A stretch of 64,000 nucleotides of DNA from assembly GCF_011761305.1 (NCBI RefSeq), contig NZ_JAAOZC010000004.1:62001-126000 (forward strand). Direction: 5' to 3'. The DNA is from Sphingomonas vulcanisoli. Lineage in GTDB: Bacteria > Pseudomonadota > Alphaproteobacteria > Sphingomonadales > Sphingomonadaceae. The notes under the pieces were generated by a model. That model saw only the letters and a program-made list of their open reading frames with translations. It had not been told where the DNA came from and did no database searches. This document shows positions 22,898 to 35,768 of this stretch, one piece after another (the stretch's first letter is position 1; each line of letters starts with the position of its first letter). Position numbers and translations under genes: made by a program.

Positions 22898-22914
22898 TGG
22901 CGGAGAGGGTGGGA
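22898..22914. repeat. Left attachment site of the island
   Basis: An exact copy of the last 17 bases of the tRNA-Ser gene (written as TGGCGGAGAGGGTGGGA on the + strand), with no tRNA around it. It matches 35679-35695. Confidence 0.85.
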
Positions 22915-23082
22915 CACTATCCCTCGATGGCTTTTCATAGCATTTTCAACGTATTATGCCGAGCGCGATGTAGCAAGCGATCTTACTTGTGTAGCAATAA
23001 GGTAGAGCTATGAACAAGGTAGTTGGGCGAAAAAGTGCTCCTTCATCGGATGCCGAAGAGCACGCAATGAAGAGTTGTCGTT

Positions 23083-26000
23083 CTACCGTCGCCCCAACCG
23101 GCGATCGACCTGATCCTCACCATCCCATCGCTTAGCTTCGTACTCGTAATCCGCAGCAAGTTGATCCAGCGTGCGGGCGGAAAAAGGGAAGGCCAGTCGC
23201 ATAGCGTCCGCGCCGACGCGGAACTGAGCCGCGAGCGCCCGCTCTTGGCCGCCACCAGGAGCGCGCGTCACTACGCCACGAGCATTGCGCTTACCGACGA
23301 CGAAGCCCGTGGCGATGTGCTCGGCAGAAAAACGATCAAGTACTTGGCGCACCGCCTCGTGAGGCCAATGTCCATCGGTGCCGACTGGAGAGGCGGATAG
23401 CAATGTCCCGATCGTTTGATCCGTCATGGTTGAACGGGCGGCTGCCCGCCCAAGATTGCGAGCCGTATCAATCCAAGTCATAAGTGCATCAGCATCTATC
23501 GTACCGTCGTCGCAAGTTCCTGGTACACGCCGGCCATGATGGAGAATTTGCCAGGCTGTGTGAGAGGCCGCCTCCTGCCCCTCCTGTCGGTCTACCTCGC
23601 CGTCGTCGCGCTTGTAGATGAGCGAGACGAGGTGCACGAAATCGCCAGGGTTTTCCGCTATCACACGATCCAGATGCGGCGTGCCATGCTGATCGTGTTC
23701 CAACAGCGGAAAGAAGCCAAACTCTAGGCTGGCCATCTCGCTAAGCGACATGACTTCAGCCGTTTCTACGCAAGCGATTGCCTCACCAAGGTGCCAGCCA
23801 TCCGGCGTGGCTACCGCAACGTCATCTCCTTGCGAAGCACGCATAGCTCTTAAAACGCGAGCAAGGAGGTGCGGATCGACTGCCTTAACTTCAAAACCAA
23901 TCGCCTGGAAAGCGGCGAAAGGGCGACTTGCGCTGAGCAATTGATCGATCAGGAACGCGGTGTCGGACGCATCAAGCCCGTGAACGTACGCAACCATCCG
24001 AGCCCAGTAACCGCTGGCAATCTCCGGCGCAGCATCCCCAATAAGCTGCCAAGTCGCGCGTTCACTCGGCGCCGACACGACAATCCGTACATGGTCGCCT
24101 GCGCTTAGTGTCGCATCGGCAAGCACCTCGGTCAGAGCATCTCGTCTAGTCTCGGCATCACTATTGCTAAGAAGCCCGCGCAATGTATCGTCCACCTTAG
24201 CGCCGAGTTCGTCACGTCGTATTAGCTCACGCAGCCATGCAGCTACATTATCGCCTTCCAACTTGGCGAGGAGACTGCCTATCCAAGCGGCCGCGTTTCC
24301 ACCGGATATCAACGCCACCACGCCGTTAATGCCTTGGGCCGAAAGCACTTCTTGCAGTGCCTTGCGACGGTCTTCCTCGACACGCTGAGAGTGCTGTTCC
24401 CAATCTTCATTTTCTTCGCGATCATAACGTGGCCAGTGATCCGCAAAGAGCCAGCGATGCCGCTCAACGACATCGACCGGCAACAAGCGCTCAGCCAAAT
24501 CTTGAAATCGCGTATGATAGGTGGGTAGCTCGCTTTGCTCTGCCGATCGGAGGCGCCACAATCCTAAAGTTCGGCGAATGCTGTCGCGGAGGATCGCCCG
24601 ATCCGCATCGCTTGCCGCATCGGCCCACTGTTCAGCTCTGCTAAGTAGTCTAGAGGCAGCTTCGTCCGGAATGTCGTCAATCCTAGAAAGAACCTCGGCA
24701 AGTTGCGTGGTCGAGTACCCTGGCCAATCCAAAAGCAAATCGACAATCGCCAGCACGAAAGTACGGACCTCATTGTGCGTAGGTTGGCCAGCGCCAATCG
24801 TTACCTCGCGCCATCGCGGCCGCATATTAGGCGTTGCGTGCCCCCCTCGGCCGGGCAACTGTCCCAAAAGTAGTCGCCAAGCCACCGGTGAACGCGTCTC
24901 GGCAAAGCCACGTACTACGGCAATCCGTTCTTCCACGCTGGCAGCGGTTTGTGGGAGCCAATAGCGTACGAGCGAACCTAGTGACGCCTCCGGCTTATTT
25001 ACCCAGTTGTCATTGATAGGCACTTCGCTGAGCTTCGCTAAGATCGCGAATACACGTGAAAAACGTCGAGGCTCCCAAGCGAGCAATTCAAGCGCCCAGA
25101 GCAGCTCGGTACGATCACAGCCCCCCATCGATGACGTAACGGGTCGCAAAAGGTTGAATAGTGCTGGCTCATCTTGTCGCAGATCGGCTTCGACCGCATC
25201 AAGGAATGCGTTGGGCGACGCTTCCGCCAGCCAACGCAGATAATGTTGCGCAAGCCATTGCCGGGGAGATGCGCCCCGCAGCGCTGAGGTAACAAGTTGG
25301 TCGACGCGTGCGGCAATCGCCCCCAAGCGATCCCCCAGCAATCGATCGCCCTCGATCGCAAGCAGCACTAAGAACTCGCCGACGGCTTCTCTTAGCGCTC
25401 CGCTCACCTCGGCGCGGACACCGTAAATGCCAGCAGCCCAGCGTTTATCTTCAGGCAAATCTAGCCGAGGATCGTCGAGCGTGAGAACGAGCCCTGCGAC
25501 GGCAACGAAGCGCGAGATGTCCTGCTCAGTAAGGGCATGATGCAGTGCAAAGAGCGCGTCCTTGCGCGACACCACCCCGCGAAAGCCCCCGGCCAACCAA
25601 ACAGGCGCGTCTGGCAACGTGGCGAGTTCCGCCGCATCCCGCTCCACTTCTTCAATGGGCTTAGCCGCTAGTTCGGTGACGCATGCTTCATCCGCAGTGT
25701 CCCCTGCTCGCCACGCTCCAGCGAGGAGAATAGGAACAAGTTTGCGTTGGAGTGCGAGGTTCCGAGCCCAGTTCGGTGTCTTCAGCTCCGGCGCGATTGC
25801 AAGCCGTCGCCGTAGAATTGTGGGCGAGCGCCCAGCCTCTGTCGTTGTTCGGTCGCGGTCGCCCTCAGCCACTCCCATATCTGCAAGAGCGTCCTGAAAG
25901 ACAGTCCAACTAGCCGGCCGTAATTCCACGTCTGGCTCGATTGGAACGGTTGCATGCGTCCGCGCGAAGACGACTAGATGTTGCGCAGAGGCAATGGCAG

Positions 26001-26817
26001 CCTCTTCCTCGGCTGCTGGATCGGCGATGACGATTAGGCCTGCCAGCTTCGTGGACAGCACACCAGCCAGCGCAAGAGCATCTTCAACGACGATCGATCG
26101 TTCGCGCTCAACTTCTTCTAGGGCTGTTGCGACGAAAGCGACCGCTTCACCAACTGAGTCCGCTGTTACAACATACGGACGATGCGGCGCCGTCGTGCGC
26201 CAGGCGCTAAAGGCATTGGCGGCGGCTGTGGTCGCTTCATCAAACAGTTTTGCCGACAATGATGGTCGGCATGCATTTGCCCAACTACTCCATGCGCCAT
26301 CTAGAGTACGGAGACCAACGGCCGGCCGTCCAAGAAGCGCTGCAAACCACAGACATGTCGCTGGGCATTGCTCAAGCCACTGGGCCAAATCTTCAGCATC
26401 GTATGCTCTCACATCCGCCCAGGCGTTCCCTTGGCGTCGAGCATCCGCCCAGCGCCCTTTACCTGGCCAACGCCGAGCGGTGATAAAAACAAAGGTAATC
26501 GTCGCTCTATCGCCCGGCGACAATTTCACGCGACTGTCCCAATCACGGTTTGGCTTGCCCGGATTGTCGTCAGCAACGCTTAGCTCCCAGCCGACCGCGC
26601 CCGCAGGCAGCCACGCATTTGCATCGCTTGCTTCCGTCCAACCGTCCCAACCCGGTCGTTGCGCTTCGTCGTAACCGGGGAAATCACTGGCAGCCAGTGA
26701 CCTAGATGTTTCGTGAACCAGGCGCCGCACTAAGACCGGCAGCAGCGAGCGAGCACGCTCAGATGCCGCCCAACTGGCGATATCGAGAGCACTTACGATC
26801 AGCGGAGAATTTGTCAT
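23083..26817 (-). CDS. Giant 1244-residue island protein, possible nuclease-like N-terminus
   Basis: No named family could be assigned. Residues 24-165 look like a compact alpha/beta domain: LLPVLVRRLVHETS, FPGYDEAQRPGWDGW (45-60), GWELSVADD (76-84), TFVFITARRWPGKGRW (108-123) and DVRAYDAEDLAQWLEQ (135-150). The D58 / E78 spacing with a strand after them resembles PD-(D/E)xK nuclease cores, but the expected lysine is not clear. Residues about 200-330 have the layout of a STAND/AAA-like module with a degenerate P-loop (TADSVGEAV). The rest is alpha-helical, repeat-like, rich in Leu/Ala/Trp. Such size and layout are common in defence proteins that sense phage parts. Transcribed toward the left island edge; ATG at 26817. 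Confidence 0.75.
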   Translation of the reverse strand: MTNSPLIVSALDIASWAASERARSLLPVLVRRLVHETSRSLAASDFPGYDEAQRPGWDGWTEASDANAWLPAGAVGWELSVADDNPGKPNRDWDSRVKLSPGDRATITFVFITARRWPGKGRWADARRQGNAWADVRAYDAEDLAQWLEQCPATCLWFAALLGRPAVGLRTLDGAWSSWANACRPSLSAKLFDEATTAAANAFSAWRTTAPHRPYVVTADSVGEAVAFVATALEEVERERSIVVEDALALAGVLSTKLAGLIVIADPAAEEEAAIASAQHLVVFARTHATVPIEPDVELRPASWTVFQDALADMGVAEGDRDRTTTEAGRSPTILRRRLAIAPELKTPNWARNLALQRKLVPILLAGAWRAGDTADEACVTELAAKPIEEVERDAAELATLPDAPVWLAGGFRGVVSRKDALFALHHALTEQDISRFVAVAGLVLTLDDPRLDLPEDKRWAAGIYGVRAEVSGALREAVGEFLVLLAIEGDRLLGDRLGAIAARVDQLVTSALRGASPRQWLAQHYLRWLAEASPNAFLDAVEADLRQDEPALFNLLRPVTSSMGGCDRTELLWALELLAWEPRRFSRVFAILAKLSEVPINDNWVNKPEASLGSLVRYWLPQTAASVEERIAVVRGFAETRSPVAWRLLLGQLPGRGGHATPNMRPRWREVTIGAGQPTHNEVRTFVLAIVDLLLDWPGYSTTQLAEVLSRIDDIPDEAASRLLSRAEQWADAASDADRAILRDSIRRTLGLWRLRSAEQSELPTYHTRFQDLAERLLPVDVVERHRWLFADHWPRYDREENEDWEQHSQRVEEDRRKALQEVLSAQGINGVVALISGGNAAAWIGSLLAKLEGDNVAAWLRELIRRDELGAKVDDTLRGLLSNSDAETRRDALTEVLADATLSAGDHVRIVVSAPSERATWQLIGDAAPEIASGYWARMVAYVHGLDASDTAFLIDQLLSASRPFAAFQAIGFEVKAVDPHLLARVLRAMRASQGDDVAVATPDGWHLGEAIACVETAEVMSLSEMASLEFGFFPLLEHDQHGTPHLDRVIAENPGDFVHLVSLIYKRDDGEVDRQEGQEAASHTAWQILHHGRRVPGTCDDGTIDADALMTWIDTARNLGRAAARSTMTDQTIGTLLSASPVGTDGHWPHEAVRQVLDRFSAEHIATGFVVGKRNARGVVTRAPGGGQERALAAQFRVGADAMRLAFPFSARTLDQLAADYEYEAKRWDGEDQVDRRLGRR

Positions 26818-26964
26818 GTCCGTAAATGTAGCGGGTGTGACGATCTAGCCAATGCCAGCTCGGTCGCAGAACATGAAGCACGAGAAGTTAGGACAGGTGA
26901 TATGTCCCTTGCAGGTGACGCCTCGGCGCCACCTCCCAAATGGTTACTGAAGCAATATACTAAG

Positions 26965-27729
26965 CTACAGCTTCTTTTTTTTCGTACTTATCGGCCCCTT
27001 TTTGGCGTTCACCGCTGCTACTTTCGCAAGAAGCATCTGCTTAGTAGTGCCGTACCTATTCTCTAACACAAATTCGATCATGTCGAACGCATCCAATACG
27101 TCGTCCCGCTCCAGCCCGGCTACGTGGCTGCCGCTGTTCCCGAGCCATTTCGTGGCTAGAAGCACGTCTCCGTTTTCCGCGTCAGTTTTCTGAAAAAGCT
27201 CGATGCGCTTATGCAGCGTCAAGGCCTTTCCGTTCTTGGTGGTTGCCGCAACACCAATATCGTCCATCAGATGCTCAACGGCGACCCGAATTTGGTTAGC
27301 GGCCGCTTCTGCGCTCGTCCAAACTAAGGCCGAAGCATACTTGATACTATCAGCGACAAGTTCCGGCGTTTTTTCAGGAAGGCGGATCGGAACGGGCGCA
27401 GGGTGGATAGATTTTACCACATAAAGATTGAGGAGGGTCTGCGTTTGCGCCTCCCAATCCTCGATAAAGTCGCTCGGTGACGTTCCGCTCACTGCCGCTA
27501 CCTCGCCGCAGCCAGGCATGGTGCATTGCAGAAATCCAGCAAAGCGGCAGAGTATCCAATCAGGCTCCCATGCCTCATGACTATGGGCTGCGGATGACGG
27601 CCCCGTTTCAACAAACTGCATCTTATCTTTAATTGGAGCGAGATGGCCTTTCCCGCAGGTCGGGCATGTCCAATGTGGAAGTTCGCCAAATTTTGTAGCC
27701 CACTGCTCACGATCAACAGCCATCAACAT
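26965..27729 (-). CDS. DUF4145-domain protein with zinc-binding N-terminus
   Basis: About 254 residues. The N-terminus has a zinc-ribbon pattern (WTCPTCGKGH and, later, LQCTMPGCGE). The C-terminal half matches DUF4145: SAEAAANQIRVAVEHLMDDIGV, LTLHKRIELFQ, LLATKWLGNSGSH and DDVLDAFDMIEFVLENRYG, ending in a lysine-rich tail. DUF4145 occurs in restriction subunits and defence genes, with unknown biochemistry. It lies 147 bp upstream of the giant gene on the same strand, so the two may work together. ATG at 27729 is preceded by AGGA. Confidence 0.75.
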   Translation of the reverse strand: MLMAVDREQWATKFGELPHWTCPTCGKGHLAPIKDKMQFVETGPSSAAHSHEAWEPDWILCRFAGFLQCTMPGCGEVAAVSGTSPSDFIEDWEAQTQTLLNLYVVKSIHPAPVPIRLPEKTPELVADSIKYASALVWTSAEAAANQIRVAVEHLMDDIGVAATTKNGKALTLHKRIELFQKTDAENGDVLLATKWLGNSGSHVAGLERDDVLDAFDMIEFVLENRYGTTKQMLLAKVAAVNAKKGPISTKKKKL

Positions 27730-27781
27730 CAATTCCTGCGCTAGGGTAAATCCACAACATCAAGCGACCGCCATTACAGCT

Positions 27782-28486
27782 TCACTTGGCCGGGGCCGCT
27801 ATTTCAAGGTGCAAGTTGCTCGCAACGATACTCGCATAACCCATGCGCAAAGCTGCAATCATCGGCTCGGGCGTCAGCAAGATAACTTCTGCCTTTATGC
27901 CCCGCCATGCAATCGGCTGTTCGTAGCCGCCGTGTTGCCAGGGCCAGAGATACCCGGAGGCAACGAGTATCGGCCGATGATCGATTTCGGGCGCAAATAT
28001 GAAGGCGCCTTCCGGCGTGTCCGACAAACTAGCGATCCGTCTTCGCCGCTGCTCGCTGAGGCGCGATTGGTGACAAGCTCGGTCGATCTCTATCAGCGGA
28101 ACCCGTTCGTGCTGTTTGATCCTATGCCCTGCCTTCCATGCAGCTATGAACGAGATCAATGCTTCCGGCCGACACTCGCCGCACGGCCTGTGCCCCGCCG
28201 CCAGCGCAACGGCTTCGTCGTGGAAGAATAGCGGATAATAGTGGCCCGGCGCATCCATTGGCGCCTTCCAGCCGTTGCCATCGAGGATACAACTTAGCCA
28301 CCGGCGGCTACGCCATTGCCGACCCAAAGAGCCATCGGGGGCATGGAGATCGCCGCGATTACCCATGAGGGCGCCTTTATGGGATGTTGCCTCGATTGCT
28401 CCGAAAGGATTGACCCGATTTTGCCTTGGACGCTTCAAGGTTGAGAAGCACGGCGCATCAAACGGGAGACTTTCTGCCCGGTCCAT
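27782..28486 (-). CDS. Conserved hypothetical protein with HRPCxEC motif
   Basis: 234 residues. It carries conserved blocks NRVNPFG (23-29), KGALMGNRGDLH (37-48), RRWLSCILDG (61-70) and AAGHRPCGECRPEAL (97-110), then a region of charged helices. This family is found in many alphaproteobacteria without assigned function. The CxxC and nearby histidines could bind a metal, as in Ada-type zinc sites, but this is inference. The ATG at 28486 has GGGAGGG just upstream and lies inside the 3' end of the serine recombinase gene (52 bp overlap). Confidence 0.65.
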   Translation of the reverse strand: MDRAESLPFDAPCFSTLKRPRQNRVNPFGAIEATSHKGALMGNRGDLHAPDGSLGRQWRSRRWLSCILDGNGWKAPMDAPGHYYPLFFHDEAVALAAGHRPCGECRPEALISFIAAWKAGHRIKQHERVPLIEIDRACHQSRLSEQRRRRIASLSDTPEGAFIFAPEIDHRPILVASGYLWPWQHGGYEQPIAWRGIKAEVILLTPEPMIAALRMGYASIVASNLHLEIAAPAK

Positions 28487-29127
28487 AACCCTCCCCTAGC
28501 TGCTGAAATGCCGCGATCTCGAAGTTCGCCGGCTATAACTTCAAAACTACGCCCTTCATCACGAAGCGAACAAATCAACGGAGCGAGGTCGCGCGCACGC
28601 TCAGCCGCCTTCTGGGAACGCACCGCAGCGCTCGCCCGAGCGCCTCTAGCGGCGACAGTGGGTAGATTGCCCCTATCACCGCCTAGAACAACACCACGCG
28701 CCTTGGCAGCTTTCAGGGCTGCCTTGGTACGCTCTGAAATCATCCGCGCTTCATGCTCGGCGACAGCGGACAGAATATGAATAGTGAGCCGGTTCGCTTC
28801 AGGAAAATCGGCGGCAATGAAGTCAACGCCGCTCTCAAGAATATTGGAAACGAAGGCCACGCTGCGAGCGAGGCGATCGAGTTTGGCAATGATAAGCGTG
28901 GCACGATGAAGGCGGCAGAGGGCGAAAGCTTTCGCAAGTTCCGGCCGATCAGCGTTGCGTCCGCTTTCTACTTCGATCTTTTCAGCGATCAGCGTGTGGG
29001 ATCGCTCAGCTAGGAAATTGTGAACAGCTTCCCGTTGAGCATCTAGGCCGAGACCGCTGCGCCCCTGCCGATCAGTCGACACCCGATAATATCCGATGAA
29101 GCCTTTTCTATCCAAACACTCCGCCAT
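28435..29127 (-). CDS. Serine recombinase of the resolvase/invertase family
   Basis: About 230 residues. The N-terminal catalytic domain has IGYYRVSTDRQGRSGLGLDAQ (catalytic serine in YRVS), ATLIIAKLDRLARS, ANRLTIHILSAVAEHEARMISERTKAAL and VLGGDRGN. The C-terminal helix-turn-helix region has EVIAGELRDRGISAARGGLWTGQKVSRLMRR. It is the small resolvase type, likely acting in multimer resolution or inversion of the island. ATG at 29127 was chosen over an upstream TTG at 29175, because the upstream residues do not fit the family. It is followed by the HRPCGEC gene with overlap. Confidence 0.9.
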   Translation of the reverse strand: MAECLDRKGFIGYYRVSTDRQGRSGLGLDAQREAVHNFLAERSHTLIAEKIEVESGRNADRPELAKAFALCRLHRATLIIAKLDRLARSVAFVSNILESGVDFIAADFPEANRLTIHILSAVAEHEARMISERTKAALKAAKARGVVLGGDRGNLPTVAARGARASAAVRSQKAAERARDLAPLICSLRDEGRSFEVIAGELRDRGISAARGGLWTGQKVSRLMRRASQP

Positions 29128-29218
29128 CCACGACTGGCAATTAGCCACAACCAACGATGTTGTTGTATATGGCAAAGTGTTTGGGCAGAATTACGTTTTT
29201 ATTTCGAACTGAAAAGGG

Positions 29219-29692
29219 TCAACTTGGATTGATACAGCTCTTGCCACTGAGGATTTCCATGACCGGCGTGAGCATCGACAGGTTAAGATCGTAATCGAGG
29301 TAGCCGTTCACAAGTGTGCCAATCCGGATGCGAAGCCGTTTCGCTGATTTTACATCATCAAAATCCGTCCCGGCTAAAATCACTGCCCCGATATTCTTTA
29401 ATCGCTCGGAAGCAAAAACCTCGGTTGCCTGCCCGTCGTCGTAGCGGACGGCATATGTAACAAGGCCGCCGTTGTGCGAAACATCGAAAGCCAAATTATG
29501 ATTGGTTAGCTGAACCGTAGTGTCATCCTTGTAGAAGGCCGTACACTGAACCCGATCACTCATAGGATTGATTGATCGCCAAATCTCCCAGTCGCCGACC
29601 TTCGTAAGCTTGGTTGCTTCTTCAGCTGACACCGGCCTGGCAACAGCCAAGCTCAGAGTTGCAGCCAGCAGTGTGCTTTTTGATATCCTCAA
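29219..29692 (-). CDS. Exported protein of unknown function
   Basis: 157 residues. An N-terminal signal peptide (MRISKSTLLAATLSLAVARPVSA) is followed by a beta-rich domain (VGDWEIWRSINPMSDRVQCTAFYK, TVQLTNHNLAF, LVTYAVRYDDG) with two cysteines that could pair. The start is TTG, supported by GGAGGG 6 bases upstream. It is divergent from the C-like regulator; the palindromic operator lies between them, so both may be under the same control. Confidence 0.65.
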   Translation of the reverse strand: MRISKSTLLAATLSLAVARPVSAEEATKLTKVGDWEIWRSINPMSDRVQCTAFYKDDTTVQLTNHNLAFDVSHNGGLVTYAVRYDDGQATEVFASERLKNIGAVILAGTDFDDVKSAKRLRIRIGTLVNGYLDYDLNLSMLTPVMEILSGKSCINPS

Positions 29693-29757
29693 ATCCGCCC
29701 TCCAATCGCTCTAATAGTGTCCGCGCTGCACGACGCGCTCACACCACCCACATCATA

Positions 29758-29787
29758 GGGCCTATAGTCCCTGGTGACTATAGGCCC
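29758..29787. promoter_or_regulatory. C-box-like perfect inverted repeat upstream of the XRE/TIR pair
   Basis: GGGCCTATAGTC (29758-29769) and GACTATAGGCCC (29776-29787) form a perfect 12-bp inverted repeat with 6-base spacer CCTGGT. Each half contains AGTC/GACT beside TATA, like the C-boxes bound by restriction-modification controller proteins. It lies 20 bp before the regulator's ATG, as expected for self-regulation. Confidence 0.75.
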
Positions 29788-29807
29788 GATTGTTCATCCC
29801 GTGGTCG

Positions 29808-30041
29808 ATGGAGGATTGGCAAAAACGGTTCGGTGCTAGGGTGCGGGCATTGCGCAAAGAGCGGGGCCTTACCCAGGAGCGCCTCGCCGTGGATGCCGAG
29901 ATTGATCTAACCTATCTCGGCGGTATCGAGCGTGGTCGCCGAAACCCGACCCTCTCGGTTATTGTCCGGATAGCAGAGGCTCTACAGGTTTCACCATCAG
30001 CGATATTCGACTACGATCCAACGACAGACGCGGAAGTTTAA
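29808..30041 (+). CDS. XRE-family regulator resembling restriction-modification C proteins
   Basis: About 77 residues, almost all one helix-turn-helix domain: RFGARVRALRKERGLTQERLAVDAEIDLTYLGGIERGRRNPTLSVIVRIAEALQVSP. Length, the 'YLGGIERGRRNPT' recognition segment and the C-box-like operator upstream all match controller (C) proteins, which delay expression of a toxic enzyme until protection is ready. No methylase or restriction enzyme is present; the next gene, 29 bp downstream, is a TIR protein. ATG at 29808 used; a TTG at 29790 is also in frame. Confidence 0.85.
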   Translation: MEDWQKRFGARVRALRKERGLTQERLAVDAEIDLTYLGGIERGRRNPTLSVIVRIAEALQVSPSAIFDYDPTTDAEV

Positions 30042-30070
30042 TATGCGTTTCCAATCGACCGGGGGCTGCA

Positions 30071-30943
30071 TTGAAGCTGACTAAGTCTCAGCGGGTGAAG
30101 GTGATCCAAGACATCGCAGGCCATTTGGACGGCGAGGACTGGACGACAATCGATCTCACTCTGAAGCAATTCGGACTTCCGATAAGCGATCAATGGTCAG
30201 GCAGCCAAAAATCCTACATCGTTCAAATGATCGCAGACGCTAAGGATGGTGACCTAATAGAGCTTGGTCAGCATTTTGGCATGCAGCTGGTCGGACAAGA
30301 CGCCGCCGTCGTGCCTGTACACGAGACACCTTATTGGCGAGACGGGCAGATTAGGGTCTTTATTTCTCATTTGACTACCGAGCGGGAGCAAGCAGCCAAT
30401 ATCCAAACCGCATTTACTCATTATGGCATGAGCGGTTTCGTAGCTCACAACGACATTCATCCGACTGCCGAGTGGCAAATAGAAATTGAGACGGCCTTGG
30501 CGACTTGCGAGGTGCTGGTCGCGCTAATCTATCCTGATTTCGTTTCAAGCAAGTGGTGCGATCAAGAGATTGGTTACGCGCTCGGACGGAGCATTCCGGT
30601 ATTCGCCGTCAGATGTGGGGCCGATCCTCATGGCTTCGTGAGCCGCTTCCAGGCTTTCAACGGAAACGGCAAAACTCCAGGCCAAATTGCAAAAGAGCTT
30701 TTCGAAGCGGCTGTCGAGCACAAAAAACTGCAGGCAAGGATGGCTGACGTAGTCATCGACCTATTCGTCAACAGCGGAAGCTTCGCCACTGCAAAAGAGA
30801 GAGCAGGTTACGTTGATCGATTAAAAGTTTGGGATGCGGGATACTCAGCACGGCTGGTCAAAGCCGTCAAAAACAACACTCAGATCAGCGGCTCATGGGG
30901 TGTGCCGGATCAAGTCAAAGCGATCCTCAAAAAGTGGAAATGA
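30071..30943 (+). CDS. TIR-domain protein (probable abortive-infection effector)
   Basis: 290 residues in three parts. Residues 1-70 are a helical domain (QRVKVIQDIAGHL, TTIDLTLKQFGLP, YIVQMIADAKDGDLIELGQHFG) like AbiJ N-terminal-type modules. Residues 94-195 are a TIR domain: IRVFISHLTTEREQAANIQ, EVLVALIYPDFVSSKWCDQEIGYALG, IPVFAVRCG. The glutamate of WCDQE (E166) sits where NAD-cleaving TIR enzymes have their catalytic residue. A helical C-terminus follows. The start is TTG. TIR NADases typically deplete NAD+ on phage infection; that role is inferred. It probably forms an operon with the C-like regulator. Confidence 0.85.
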   Translation: MKLTKSQRVKVIQDIAGHLDGEDWTTIDLTLKQFGLPISDQWSGSQKSYIVQMIADAKDGDLIELGQHFGMQLVGQDAAVVPVHETPYWRDGQIRVFISHLTTEREQAANIQTAFTHYGMSGFVAHNDIHPTAEWQIEIETALATCEVLVALIYPDFVSSKWCDQEIGYALGRSIPVFAVRCGADPHGFVSRFQAFNGNGKTPGQIAKELFEAAVEHKKLQARMADVVIDLFVNSGSFATAKERAGYVDRLKVWDAGYSARLVKAVKNNTQISGSWGVPDQVKAILKKWK

Positions 30944-31005
30944 GGGGTGTGGACCGGCCTTGTAAGCCTATCGGTATTAGGCAGTGCTTTTGGCTGAGTA
31001 GGTCG

Positions 31006-32133
31006 TCAGCTGGCAATCCGAGGCGATAGATGGAGCGTTTCTCGGAAGAGTTCGCGGAATTGATCGTCTGCTGCCGGGAATGGTGCCAATAGAACCTTTG
31101 CAAGTCGCTCACGGTCGATATCACCGAGGCTAAGAATATCATCCGGAATACGACCTTCTAGACGCCCGAGGTTATGGTTATCCGGTTGTCGGATGACCTC
31201 GCCGCCGTTTTCCTCCTGTCCCAGATAGTAGCCGAGCGTCTGCAACCCTTCGCTTGCATGTTGAATTAACGAAGTGCCAAATCGGAGGGGTCCGCCAAGG
31301 CAGCCTGCTAACTCGCAGGTCAGCGCATCGCGTACATGGCCGCAAATCTCTGGCGTTGGGGCTACCACGATGATGTTGTCCGAATAAACGAACAGACGCG
31401 CATCGGGATGAACGCAGCGGGTCACCTTGAAAAGAATGTGCCGCAAGAGAGCGTTGGATGCCGGCGAGCCCTGCAAAAGGCCTCGCGGACCCTCACCTTC
31501 ACTGATTGAAGTACTAGAGACAAATCTAGACATCGCCCCGTTGGGTCTTCGGGCATTTTCCTTCCGCTGCAAAGGAAGGTGCCGATAATCCAACGCGCAT
31601 CGGATCACCTCCGTTGGTAAGAGGCAAAGCTGGTAAACTGCCCGAATGTCGATCGAGCAAAAGCAATCTCGGATGTCGGCCGCCCATATCCACTGTCGAC
31701 CGCCTTCAATAGCCTGCGCGATATCTATCACTGCCCGGCCAGGACCAGCACGGCGAACATCGTAGAAGGGATGATTGACGGGCAATTGCGCATCTAATGC
31801 GTGCCGGATTACCGCATGCCGAAAATGCTGTTCATAGCCGAATTCGCAGATCGGTCGCCGCCCGCCGCGTCGCTTGCGCTTCAAATACCACTCGATCGGT
31901 TCGACGCAGGCTTCAAAGAGGCTGGTCTCTTCGATCATCTCGTTGACGACCTCCACTGTCGCGAAGGGCCATAGCTGGTAGGCAATGTGCGCCAGCGCAT
32001 AGGGGTCGCGTAGGAAACCGGCAACGCGCCCTTGCTGTTTGCTGGTCGGCACGAATGCGCTCTCCGTTACCGCCTGAGCGATCCTCGATATTTGATGCCT
32101 GTAGGATCGCGCGGCCTGCCCCCTGCCGATCAT
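31006..32133 (-). CDS. Reverse transcriptase-like protein with YSDN active-site motif
   Basis: 375 residues. The palm motifs of reverse transcriptases are in order: motif A AADIRDCFCSID (151-162, D153), motif B GLLQGSPASN (218-227), motif C VYSDN (249-253) and motif E-like LGYYLG (300-305). Residues 90-135 (RRPICEFGYEQHFRHAVIRHAL ... RRAGPGRAV) fit motifs 1-2. Motif C normally reads YxDD; here the second aspartate is asparagine (codon AAC, read directly). There is no maturase, endonuclease or integrase domain, so it is not a standard group II intron enzyme. It overlaps the upstream gene by 4 bp (ATGA). Class unknown; defence RTs are the closest idea. Confidence 0.85.
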   Translation of the reverse strand: MIGRGQAARSYRHQISRIAQAVTESAFVPTSKQQGRVAGFLRDPYALAHIAYQLWPFATVEVVNEMIEETSLFEACVEPIEWYLKRKRRGGRRPICEFGYEQHFRHAVIRHALDAQLPVNHPFYDVRRAGPGRAVIDIAQAIEGGRQWIWAADIRDCFCSIDIRAVYQLCLLPTEVIRCALDYRHLPLQRKENARRPNGAMSRFVSSTSISEGEGPRGLLQGSPASNALLRHILFKVTRCVHPDARLFVYSDNIIVVAPTPEICGHVRDALTCELAGCLGGPLRFGTSLIQHASEGLQTLGYYLGQEENGGEVIRQPDNHNLGRLEGRIPDDILSLGDIDRERLAKVLLAPFPAADDQFRELFRETLHLSPRIAS

Positions 32134-32705
32134 CGCATCGCCTCACGCAGCGTTCCGAACGGCAATTCTCGCGTTCCCGTCGCCGCGTCATCGACGCCGA
32201 GTATTTCTCCCAAGAGCTGCAACGTCGGCTCGACACGCGATCGAGCACGATAGGCAGCCCGCTGCGGCGCGGTCAAAAGGTCCAACTGGAAAAGCTTTTG
32301 GATCGCACGCCCGCCGCGCAGGATGCTGGGCACGTCATCCTTGGCGACCGCGCGCGCGAGTGCATAAGCGAAAATCGCGTTGAGGTGACGCAGCTTGGTT
32401 TCGAGCATCAGCACGTCATCGTCCTCCTCAGGTTCGATCGGCTCCATCGCTGCGAGCAATTCCGGAGGGAGGCTCAACATGGGCACATCGTCACACCGAG
32501 TGGCAGCTGCTTGATCTGGATCGACCATCACCCCGCCGATCATGACGACGGCTCGACCAGGGCATCGCTGCTGATGTCGGTGCAGCGCGGACTTTGAGAC
32601 CTCAAATGTTCGCGCGGTACTGATCAGCGATCCACCGACGGTCAACGCACCGTCGATCGCTGAGCGGTTGGCGTGCTTGCAAATTGAGCATCGGATGTGT
32701 GCCAT
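32130..32705 (-). CDS. Zinc-finger/helix-turn-helix protein of the RT cassette
   Basis: 191 residues. The N-terminus (MAHIRCSICKHANRSAIDGALTVGGSLISTARTFEVSKSALHRHQQRC) has paired CxxC / H...C ligands and a helix-turn-helix, as in many phage small DNA-binding proteins and terminase small-subunit relatives. The middle is acidic (EPIEPEEDDD), followed by helical sequence. It may bind DNA or RNA and deliver the coupled reverse transcriptase; this is inferred from the ATGA overlap. Confidence 0.65.
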   Translation of the reverse strand: MAHIRCSICKHANRSAIDGALTVGGSLISTARTFEVSKSALHRHQQRCPGRAVVMIGGVMVDPDQAAATRCDDVPMLSLPPELLAAMEPIEPEEDDDVLMLETKLRHLNAIFAYALARAVAKDDVPSILRGGRAIQKLFQLDLLTAPQRAAYRARSRVEPTLQLLGEILGVDDAATGTRELPFGTLREAMR

Positions 32706-32774
32706 CCCACCTATGTCTCACTTTCCCACATCATTTCCCGCCGTGTGCGGACGAGCGTCGATCGGCCGGCTCAG

Positions 32775-33164
32775 TCATATGCCCGATGCATGCAGACGCG
32801 GCTCAAGCCCGCGAAGCGCGTTTGGCGGAATGATCACATCATCCGGCAGCCTCGCCCCACCGGCGAAAAAGCGCCTGCCAGCCTCAGATCGATACAATCC
32901 CGCCTGCTCGGCAAGGTTTGCAATTATATCGTCCGACACCAGCGGCTCGATTTCGCCAATTGCGGCATCGATCGTTAGAGCGGAAACATATATCTCCCAG
33001 CCGTCGAAAAGCACCTCGGGTTGAAGGCGAAGCCTTTCTCGCGGACATACTCCAAGTGACGAGAGATGGTCCTGCGCCATCTCGACCCGTCGTGAGGGTG
33101 ATAGATCAGCCAGCCGGAGACTGAGCCCAAGCATCAGCTCTTGGCAGTTTTTAGCCTCGGTCAT
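32775..33164 (-). CDS. Hypothetical protein of the RT cassette (129 aa)
   Basis: 129 residues, unknown family. A helical N-terminus (ELMLGLSLRLADLSPSRRVEMAQDHL) is followed by a mixed region (VLFDGWEIYVSALTIDAAIGEIEPLVSDDIIANLAEQAGLYRSEAG). There is no signal peptide or membrane helix. It starts in the stop codon of the preceding gene (ATGA) and is followed by a 69-bp gap before the zinc-finger gene. Confidence 0.6.
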   Translation of the reverse strand: MTEAKNCQELMLGLSLRLADLSPSRRVEMAQDHLSSLGVCPRERLRLQPEVLFDGWEIYVSALTIDAAIGEIEPLVSDDIIANLAEQAGLYRSEAGRRFFAGGARLPDDVIIPPNALRGLEPRLHASGI

Positions 33165-33649
33165 TGGCCGAGCCCCATGAGCCGATATCCGGCTGGCCCT
33201 CCAAGACTGTCTTCGACCGCACGAAGGAAGCGGCGGCGAACCAACTCGTCGCGAGCCGAGAGTACCCGATCAAAGCTCATAGCTAAGGCTGAAGAAATGC
33301 GGTCGGTTCGTATGTCGAACAGATTGGCCTCACTCCGCCGCGCCTGGCGAAGCAGATGATCCAGTAAAAGAGCACCGTTCTTGGAAAGCCCCAGCCTCGC
33401 AATCCGAATATCATGATTGGCTGGCTTTACGTCGCCTTTGGCCGCTTGCTGCGATGGATTGCACCCCACGCTTACGGCCAAGACATTTTCAACCGCTGGT
33501 CGTGACACCAGAGTGGCTTTTCCTCCCGAATTCAAAATCCGACGATGGAGATCGCCGACCGCTTTGGCGTGTGCGATCTGCTGATCATCGATTGGCTTGC
33601 CGGAATGGCCACGCGGTCGCACTGCATCCACAAGACGCTTGTTTGTCAT
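33161..33649 (-). CDS. Hypothetical protein of the RT cassette with winged-helix-like C-terminus (162 aa)
   Basis: 162 residues, unknown family. The second half (IARLGLSKNGALLLDHLLRQARRSEANLFDIRTDRISSALAMSFDRVLSARDELVRRRFLRAVED) has the helix pattern of a winged-helix DNA-binding domain. Such domains are frequent in replication initiators and regulators. Both ends overlap neighbours by ATGA, so it is translated as part of the cassette. Confidence 0.6.
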   Translation of the reverse strand: MTNKRLVDAVRPRGHSGKPIDDQQIAHAKAVGDLHRRILNSGGKATLVSRPAVENVLAVSVGCNPSQQAAKGDVKPANHDIRIARLGLSKNGALLLDHLLRQARRSEANLFDIRTDRISSALAMSFDRVLSARDELVRRRFLRAVEDSLGGPAGYRLMGLGQ

Positions 33650-33831
33650 GACGACACTCCATTGGTCGTTACCTCTGTAAGGAAAGCGACCAACGCCTCC
33701 CGCATGAGGCTCGATCTGGACATACGGAAAGCATTAAGCCGGCCATTGCGCCTTACAAGGGCAGCATCCAGCGCAGACTTTAACTCGCGCGTCATACCGA
33801 CAGTCACGTAACTGATAGGGTCAACCGACAT
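33646..33831 (-). CDS. Small ribbon-helix-helix-like protein, first gene of the RT cassette
   Basis: 61 residues: SYVTVGMTRELKSALDAALVRRNGRLNAFRMSRSSLMREALVAFL has the beta-strand plus two-helix plan of ribbon-helix-helix regulators, although a predicted strand near the N-terminus is short. It is probably the autoregulator of the cassette, whose promoter would lie in the 135 bp before it. It overlaps the next gene by ATGA. Confidence 0.6.
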   Translation of the reverse strand: MSVDPISYVTVGMTRELKSALDAALVRRNGRLNAFRMSRSSLMREALVAFLTEVTTNGVSS

Positions 33832-33966
33832 ATTCCCGCCTCCGGCAGATTATATGCCACCATGTTCTTGGTTAATCAACCACTGTATTTTGCAACTGGT
33901 TGCAAACTTCAATCGATAATCGACAAACACTTTGCCATAGGCACGTTCAGATTTGTTTGTCGCAAT

Positions 33967-35640
33967 CTATTCGACGTCTACTGGGTACGCTATTCGTTGA
34001 AGGCATTCCAGAAGCAGTCTTGCGGTGTGCCCCTCACCATAACCATTCATGGCGCTATTTTCGCTGACCACCCAGCCGCCCAAGCGAGCAGAAATTTCGA
34101 TTGAAGCACCGACCACGCGCAGCGCATCGCGGAAGTTGTGGCGGAGCGAATGAAAACTAACTTTGGGATCGGGCAGCACCCCGCGCACCAGACGTCCGAT
34201 CCTTTTTTGCGCCGCATTGGTGGTCCCCGGAGTGACAGGTGCGTCTGCCAGAAGAAGCGCCTCCGGTTCGCGGCTACGCTTCAACTCACGGATACCGGCA
34301 GCAAGTAACCACGGGTGAACCGGAATAGTGCGACGTGACGCGACGGTCTTAAGGTCACGATATTGGTTTGGAGCTATACGGAAACACCAAACCCCATCGA
34401 CAGCCACCAGATCATCGACACGCAAACCGGCGATTTCGGAAAGCCGCATCCCATTGAATAAGCCAATTCGAACCATCCAGTAGGTCCAGGTCCGCGCGAC
34501 GTCTCCGTCGGACGACCCCATCCCGCCACCGGTGATCTCAGCCAGCGTGACTAATTCTGTCTTGGTCAGCGGACGTCTAGGCTTTTCGCGCGGAGCGGGC
34601 GGCCCTTTGACCCCCTTGGCAGGATTGCGCGACACCATCTCCTCGCGCTCTAGCCATTTGAACAGACTGCTTAGCAGTTCGACATAGAGAGAGACGCTCT
34701 TCGCTGACAGTGTCGGCAAGCCCAACCGCTCGTTGGCTACCGTCGCCTCCGCAATAGACATGCCCTTAAAGTGCTTACGGGCGTTTGCCGGCATCGCGAT
34801 CAGCTTGTCACGGCAGGTGCGCACATCCTCGCGTCTCAGCGAGCCGATGAGTTTTTCGGGGCCTAGAATTTCCTCAATTGCCCGAAACCGGAATTCCCAA
34901 GCCGCCCGCGTTTTATAGGCGACGCCGGATCGTTCGGGGTCTGATTTATATGCTGTGATCGCGCCCGAAACAGTCAGCGGGGCGGACAACGGGTCTCCAG
35001 CACTCACACCTTCAAAGAGCGGATCAACTGTGGCAACCAACCGCCCAGATAAACGCTCGGATCGGCGTCCAAGATGCTCAATCTGCGCCTGCTGGAATGC
35101 CTCACAGACGCGGATGAAATCGGGCGACGCCGGCTTGTCTACCGAGGCAGGCTCGACGTTGCAGCCGGCCCACTTTGCAAATCGGAGTGCGATGGCCTGC
35201 AACGTCGGGTCTTCGAGAGATTGGGCGACGAGCCCGGTCATCTCATCCACGCTCTCCAACTCTGCAATGCGCGCACTCGGCGAAATCGGCAGCCTCTGGG
35301 CCTCGACCTCCATCTTATGAAGGAAGGCTCGGCTGAGTTCATACAGCTCTTCGTCGCTTAACGGTGCGGGCGGTAAAGATCGGAGCTTCGCTTCCGCCTC
35401 AGCAAACCGACGATCGACCGCCACACGCTCTAACCTGGCAAGCCTGCAAGCATCGGCGAAGCTCACGCCGCCGAAAGACTTCCACAGGAAATTCTTGCCA
35501 ATTTGCAGACGAATTCGATCGGGGACGCGAACTCGTAGCTCCCAGCTTCCGCCGCGCTGGATCAACCCAGCCGGCCTAGCCACTTCGCCACCCTGTGCAG
35601 CAGCTTTGTGTAGCAACTCGCGTGATTTTCCCTTGGCCAT
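33967..35640 (-). CDS. Tyrosine-family integrase
   Basis: 557-residue site-specific recombinase that would insert and excise the island at tRNA-Ser. A long N-terminal arm/core-binding region is followed by the catalytic domain: first arginine in LFNGMRLSEIAGLRVDDL, HSLRHNFRDAL (H497, R500), LGGW (second His replaced by W523) and the nucleophile Y534 in NGYGEGH. The ATG at 35640 is 38 bp from the tRNA 3' end, the usual arrangement. It is transcribed away from the tRNA toward the cargo. Confidence 0.92.
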   Translation of the reverse strand: MAKGKSRELLHKAAAQGGEVARPAGLIQRGGSWELRVRVPDRIRLQIGKNFLWKSFGGVSFADACRLARLERVAVDRRFAEAEAKLRSLPPAPLSDEELYELSRAFLHKMEVEAQRLPISPSARIAELESVDEMTGLVAQSLEDPTLQAIALRFAKWAGCNVEPASVDKPASPDFIRVCEAFQQAQIEHLGRRSERLSGRLVATVDPLFEGVSAGDPLSAPLTVSGAITAYKSDPERSGVAYKTRAAWEFRFRAIEEILGPEKLIGSLRREDVRTCRDKLIAMPANARKHFKGMSIAEATVANERLGLPTLSAKSVSLYVELLSSLFKWLEREEMVSRNPAKGVKGPPAPREKPRRPLTKTELVTLAEITGGGMGSSDGDVARTWTYWMVRIGLFNGMRLSEIAGLRVDDLVAVDGVWCFRIAPNQYRDLKTVASRRTIPVHPWLLAAGIRELKRSREPEALLLADAPVTPGTTNAAQKRIGRLVRGVLPDPKVSFHSLRHNFRDALRVVGASIEISARLGGWVVSENSAMNGYGEGHTARLLLECLQRIAYPVDVE

Positions 35641-35678
35641 AAGCCAATTTAGCGCTTTTCAGCCGCTTTTGGAACCAT

Positions 35679-35695
35679 TGGCGGAGAGGGTGGGA
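35679..35695. repeat. Right attachment site (inside tRNA-Ser 3' end)
   Basis: TGGCGGAGAGGGTGGGA on the + strand, i.e. the CCA end, discriminator, acceptor arm and part of the T-stem of the tRNA. It is identical to 22898-22914. The island keeps the tRNA intact. Confidence 0.85.
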
Positions 35696-35768
35696 TTCGA
35701 ACCCACGTTACGGTTGCCCGCAAACCGCATTTCGAGTGCGGCGCATTCGACCTCTCTGCCACCTCTCC
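35679..35768 (-). tRNA. tRNA-Ser (anticodon CGA)
   Basis: A 90-base tRNA with encoded CCA. The acceptor stem GGAGAGG/CCTCTCC pairs perfectly and the discriminator is G. The anticodon stem CCGCA/TGCGG encloses loop CTCGAAA, giving anticodon CGA. A long variable arm typical of serine tRNA and a T-arm with GTTCGAATC are present. It serves as integration target of the island. Confidence 0.97.

Follow-up and report, generated by a model that had tools for sequence, protein, structure and literature searches.

The current view of NLR-type receptors is that of switches driven by nucleotides. In PD-Lambda-4, which is said to be the system of Vassallo et al. 2022, the A protein has an N-terminal nuclease-like domain, a STAND-like core and a helical solenoid; the member at locus L059 carries an intact P-loop (GLSGVGKT) and a GGID...FQAKK stretch (Q-x-K motif), and is encoded next to a B gene (PDLC03992). 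The Avs proteins (AVAST; Avs1–Avs4 and Avs5) also consist of an effector domain, a STAND-like core and a long repeat sensor, and immunity by Avs5 requires the Walker A of this protein and is lost when it is mutated (PMC12931631). Finally, inactive STANDs (iSTAND and iSTAND2, Kaur et al. 2020, 2021; BrxB, BrxF, PglW and PglZ, NAR 2026) are presented as conflict proteins which have the STAND fold and have lost the Walker motifs. They are assigned to MoxR-vWA or BREX-type systems, those of BREX being characterised as fast-evolving and devoid of a C-terminal helical bundle; a role as nucleic-acid sensors has also been proposed (PMC8195603).

Here we describe a 1244-aa protein encoded in a 64,000-nucleotide window of Sphingomonas vulcanisoli (the window being the whole stretch of DNA that was analysed; see Table 1). 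On balance, we consider it somewhat probable that this protein is a single-gene receptor of the NLR/Avs kind that uses a nuclease against phages and whose STAND switch is inactive.

Table 1. Features of the island and of the 1244-aa protein, in positions of the window.
Feature	Position	Strand	Basis
1244-aa protein, predicted inactive-STAND nuclease	23083..26817	-	ORF, family, profile and structure evidence
PD-(D/E)XK-like nuclease domain, residues ~5-165	26323..26805	-	models; D58, E78 and K88 invariant in 30/30 rows
NB-ARC/STAND-like core without Walker A, residues ~166-345	25783..26322	-	models, alignment; D220-S221-x-x-E224 at P-loop position
Winged-helix-like domain after the NTPase-like core, residues ~346-425	25543..25782	-	predicted secondary structure; STAND matches reach residue 421
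Helical solenoid (HEAT-like), presumed sensor, residues ~426-1244	23086..25542	-	models to residue 1195
DUF4145 (HEPN-clan) protein, 255 aa, TTG start	26965..27732	-	PF13643, E 7.7e-14
Tyrosine integrase of the island	33967..35640	-	PF00589, E 1.3e-9; beside tRNA-Ser
Distal 17-bp copy of tRNA-Ser 3' end (attachment-site repeat)	22898..22914	+	exact repeat
Proximal 17-bp copy, inside tRNA-Ser (35679-35768, -)	35679..35695	+	same repeat

The gene, its mobile island and its family

The gene consists of a single uninterrupted frame of 1244 codons, in agreement with the sequence-only reading, and the three motifs on which that reading relied (PGWDG, which includes D58; GWELS, which includes E78; and TFVFITARRW) are all present in it. 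Nearly full-length relatives were found in Pseudomonadota, Bacillota, Acidobacteriota and Thermodesulfobacteriota (hosts by tree labels), as well as in Actinomycetota and Bacteroidota, and comparison with the nearest relative, L001, pointed to purifying selection (pN/pS 0.32, with synonymous sites saturated). Given this spread over six phyla and the selection acting on the gene, the frame is not a product of chance. Neither Pfam nor NCBIfam contained a family for the protein, and the PDB contained no sequence relative.

The gene is carried on a mobile island of 12.8 kb (22898–35695) with a GC content of 56.7%, versus 65.6% outside. The last 17 bases of the tRNA-Ser gene recur exactly at the opposite end of the island, and the 1244-aa gene is the final gene ahead of this distal repeat. 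In a relative from the same genus, a search for the empty site led to the locus carrying the neighbouring gene, whose 3.5 kb include a tRNA-Ala but no tRNA-Ser, so that no empty site was seen. Other cargo includes RT-like, HTH, TIR, serine recombinase, PDC-S40 and DUF4145 genes. Specifically, a 375-aa protein (31006–32133, minus strand) gave weak reverse-transcriptase matches (PDLC01136, E 2e-5; RVT_1, E 0.0055) and, judging by these, may possibly be a defence RT; its gene overlaps that of a 191-aa protein without matches (32130–32705). A small HTH gene followed by one for a 290-aa TIR-domain protein (PF13676, E 1.3e-14) occupies 29790–30943 (plus strand), and the gene at 27782–28486 (minus strand) strongly matches the PADLOC candidate PDC-S40 (216 bits).

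Searching genome contigs with the 1244-aa protein as query yielded 25 loci. Twenty-three plasmid records matched the same query (in 18, at a single place and across 80% or more of its length), and phage records provided one match, which was partial; IMG/VR, queried with the family alignment, provided 14 contigs, several of which match the C-terminal part only. Within the same taxonomic family the spread was patchy, with a match in 5 of 397 genomes (own genome included). Identity to the 1244-aa protein in a 29-row alignment was 24–45%, and 63% for L001; invariant sites were determined in a 30-row alignment that leaves out the divergent members L025, L039, L040 and L043. We conclude that the family is real, well conserved and unnamed. 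The open PMC literature contained no account of it, only of inactive STANDs elsewhere, an absence that carries little weight as subscription papers lay mostly outside the search.

Domain order and the lost Walker A

Computation established the order of domains listed in Table 1, the loss of Walker A, and the invariance of two sets of residues (D58/E78/K88 and D220-S221-x-x-E224). The AlphaFold models used covered residues 1–1195 (pLDDT 85.6, pTM 0.60) and residues 5–425 (pLDDT 92.2, pTM 0.89). In the predicted structure, residues 10–161 are arranged as helix, helix, three strands, helix, strand, helix, strand, helix, and thus contain the alpha-beta-beta-beta-alpha-beta core of PD-(D/E)XK nucleases with an acidic pair: D58 is located just ahead of strand 2 and E78 within strand 3, with K88 opening the next helix. 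All three residues were identical in 30/30 aligned rows, including the two (D58 and E78) that had been singled out from sequence. Instead of a standard (D/E)xK, the motif reads E78-L-S, and the invariant lysine lies further on, at K88. Using VIA, we found that residues ~1–160 of the 5–425 model resemble MspJI (4f0p, Z 9.0) and FokI (2fok, Z 8.8), and that residues 6–160 of the 1–1195 model resemble Avs4 (8dgf, Z 7.6), all middling values for a tool whose caution threshold is 8, rising to about 13 for helical models. Foldseek with the 5–425 model returned Avs3 (8dgc, E 3.4e-5) as top hit and no other hit below 0.001. The proposal of a nuclease-like N-terminus is therefore upheld both by the invariant residues and by structural neighbours with restriction-nuclease and Avs folds.

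Over residues ~165–425, VIA matched CED-4 (Z 9.9–10.6; 8jns: Z 10.6, 228 aligned, rmsd 4.7), plant NLRs (Z 9.3–9.6), EfAvs5 (9jap, Z 8.8) and a human apoptosome protein (5juy, Z 8.6), with 226–239 residues aligned in the matches of the core to STAND proteins. AAA+ proteins had almost equal Z; the STAND-like assignment is nevertheless persuasive despite moderate Z, because several STAND proteins concur across a stretch that takes in both the core and the winged helix. The predicted structures thus have the Avs/STAND layout of effector, STAND core and repeat sensor, and their structural neighbours include Avs3, Avs4 and the core of Avs5. No Avs model in Pfam, PADLOC or NCBIfam matched the protein, and a Pfam scan of residues 5–425 returned 0 families at E ≤ 10.

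What had appeared from sequence as a degenerate NTPase-like block is predicted to have an NB-ARC/CED-4-like fold without Walker A, a motif found in 0 of the 30 aligned rows. At the former P-loop position, D220, S221 and E224 are identical in 30/30 rows; the divergent L025, L039, L040 and L043 also have no Walker A there, and the D-S pair is not kept in them. The NTP-binding P-loop expected of an Avs/STAND protein is thus missing from the family, whereas Avs5 depends on its Walker A. Alternatively, the D-S-x-x-E loop may itself bind a nucleotide or another small ligand, making the switch altered rather than dead. Its invariance at the P-loop position is not what pure decay would predict, but we consider this reading rather improbable: the Gly-Lys-Thr of Walker A faces Glu-Ala-Val/Leu (in hhalign, the P-loop GLSGVGKT of PD-Lambda-4 A lies opposite ADSVGEAV of the 1244-aa protein, with its Lys and Thr aligned to A225 and V226), only 3/30 rows have D at residue 266, close to the acid of Walker B, and published inactive STANDs are taken to have lost Walker-motif function. 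The protein resembles iSTANDs in its STAND fold and eroded Walker motifs (predicted structure, alignment). Unlike the published ones, it combines nuclease, winged helix and solenoid in a single chain, and its former P-loop has become an invariant D-S-x-x-E. Inactive STANDs being already published, the family is a further variant, likened to iSTANDs by their descriptions; by analogy with them, nucleic-acid sensing may be an alternative role for the core.

The helical repeats noted from sequence correspond to a solenoid in the predicted structure. Whole-chain Foldseek and VIA lists were dominated by eukaryotic HEAT proteins, so we read these matches merely as ‘solenoid’; a BFVD search returned nothing telling. 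Within the solenoid, residues 526–643 form a block in common with PD-Lambda-4 A, being the best stretch for the PADLOC PD-Lambda-4_A model (PDLC03991), which scored 36.1 bits on the 1244-aa protein and matched 20/29 family members at E ≤ 1. Aligning a profile of 11 PD-Lambda-4 A proteins with the family in hhalign gave a probability of 98.5 (E 2.3e-15) over 967 columns in the same order, and a weak likeness for the N-terminal parts alone (probability 77, E 2e-5); similarly, an HMM of PD-Lambda-4 A matched the 1244-aa frame at E 6e-14 (47.8 bits), and its N-terminal half alone at E 2e-4. Given the 967-column alignment, the 1244-aa protein comes from the same stock as PD-Lambda-4 A, the two being distant, co-linear relatives of common descent and of similar size.

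Membership of the PD-Lambda-4 system itself was considered and rejected. A scan of 398 genomes with the PD-Lambda-4_A model found 9 with a match at 1e-5 (own genome included), and true A members were among the matches, e.g., L059 with 2559 bits, versus 36.1 bits and no full-length match to PDLC03991 here. The intact P-loop is missing (no Walker A in 30/30 rows), PADLOC found PDLC03992 in 0/10 other island proteins, and the Q-x-K motif (FQAKK) is absent.

An N-terminal, HigA/XRE-like HTH is present in most relatives (PF01381, HTH_3, matches 24/29 family members), and the family profile searched against the PDB found HigA and XRE antitoxins for this part and nothing significant elsewhere. The HTH is missing from the 1244-aa protein, L001 and L014, and the 147 bases ahead of the 1244-aa start contain no frame able to hold one. 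As the 1244-aa protein and L001 group with the HTH-bearing L027 in a quick tree (SH-aLRT 99), loss of the HTH is the simplest reading. We give hardly any credence to the idea, implied by PLSDB product names (‘HigA family addiction module antitoxin’, ‘helix-turn-helix transcriptional regulator’), that the protein works chiefly to regulate transcription or as an antitoxin: these names derive from the HTH part alone, which makes up ~100 of ~1350 residues in those members that have it.

The same solenoid was also found with other N-termini, in L050, L051, L052, L053, L054 and L058 and in L041 and L056. In both the L050/L053 group and L041/L056, the C-terminal body is homologous to residues ~364–1228 of the 1244-aa protein and the N-terminus is replaced. 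A HetE-N domain is encoded in a separate ORF directly upstream in L041 (PF20701, E 1.5e-40). Neither Pfam nor PADLOC gave anything useful for L050, whose N-terminus presumably resembles DUF4297-type nucleases. A PD-Lambda-4_A-like protein in L061 (538–5259) has an extra N-terminus of ~300 residues that opens, as judged by eye, with an HTH-like stretch and is perhaps a second HTH fusion within the common stock.

Neighbouring genes

The sequence-only reading had rightly noted a DUF4145 gene upstream on the same strand, and had cast its product as a helper of the large protein. The two genes share an island and are 147 bp apart, as would suit a two-gene system with a HEPN protein. We nonetheless regard such a system as very improbable, and the helper claim as failing, since an HMM search found DUF4145 at 0/61 homologue loci (several of which are short contigs with incomplete flanks, so that a rare pairing could be missed), and since among 397 family genomes DUF4145 occurs in 4, the 1244-aa gene in 5, and both in only one, the genome studied here. 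HEPN proteins are expected to have an arginine before the GN..H block; in the DUF4145 protein and L033 its place is taken by lysine (TKWLGNSGSH), and L034 and L035 have R. No neighbour of any kind was conserved, the largest BLAST cluster spanning 4 loci (DUF4145 loci fetched as such set aside). Two outcomes had been named beforehand as speaking against the sequence-only reading, and they came out differently: a conserved neighbourhood is indeed lacking, but the supposed lack of any nuclease or STAND-like fold is contradicted by the predicted structures.

The suggestion of a defence-like setting was borne out. Of the 14 annotated plasmid loci that contain a long member, eight (H4, H5, H6, H9, H10, H12, H14 and H17) have defence-labelled genes (AbiE, restriction enzymes, Shedu, SIR2, Abi and a PDDEXK candidate) near the family gene and the remaining six (H1, H7, H8, H11, H13 and H18) showed none, a raw tally without a control set that leaves out H15 (without annotation), H20 and H23 (both partial) and the remaining plasmid matches. 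A Dsr1-like gene adjoins the family gene in L003. A defence role of the family is likely, if putative.

Plants have sensor-helper NLR pairs, which offer a model for a mixed complex in which the 1244-aa protein would be the switch-dead half and a second STAND with an intact P-loop would drive assembly by NTP. On two Rhizobium plasmids (L037 and L082), the gene immediately after the family gene encodes a PD-Lambda-4_A-like protein whose P-loop, GASGLGKS, is intact. However, such a neighbour was found in only 2/61 homologue loci, several of them short contigs, and in the own genome the PD-Lambda-4_A model finds the 1244-aa gene alone and NACHT and NB-ARC find none; we thus consider a mixed complex unlikely.

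Proposed mode of action and significance

As a single-gene receptor, the 1244-aa protein would recognise a phage product through its helical arm (residues ~426–1244). From there the signal would travel through the NTPase-like core, whose usual way of binding NTP would be lost, to the N-terminal PD-(D/E)XK-like domain, which would cut DNA after either clustering or release. By analogy with Avs proteins and NLRs, we infer that the protein cuts as a nuclease, that its arm senses phage and that it acts against phages; most speculative is that activation would proceed without nucleotide exchange in the same polypeptide, or would be aided by another STAND. The fused HigA/XRE-like HTH of most relatives would perhaps serve self-repression or DNA docking. 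More broadly, we entertain as a tentative possibility that the family represents a widespread class of NLR-like nucleases in which a D-S-x-x-E switch replaces the P-loop, sensing by the solenoid sets off the nuclease free of NTP, and the fused HigA-like HTH anchors the protein at its own promoter or on DNA.

Public annotation masks the family as ‘HTH regulator’ or ‘HigA antitoxin’. One solenoid sensor is found joined to several different N-terminal effectors, and the family, present in at least six phyla with the receptor layout kept and the P-loop gone, would offer a natural test of NTP-free firing and of switch replacement. The 1244-aa protein may thus show how NLR-like receptors can fire without ATP.
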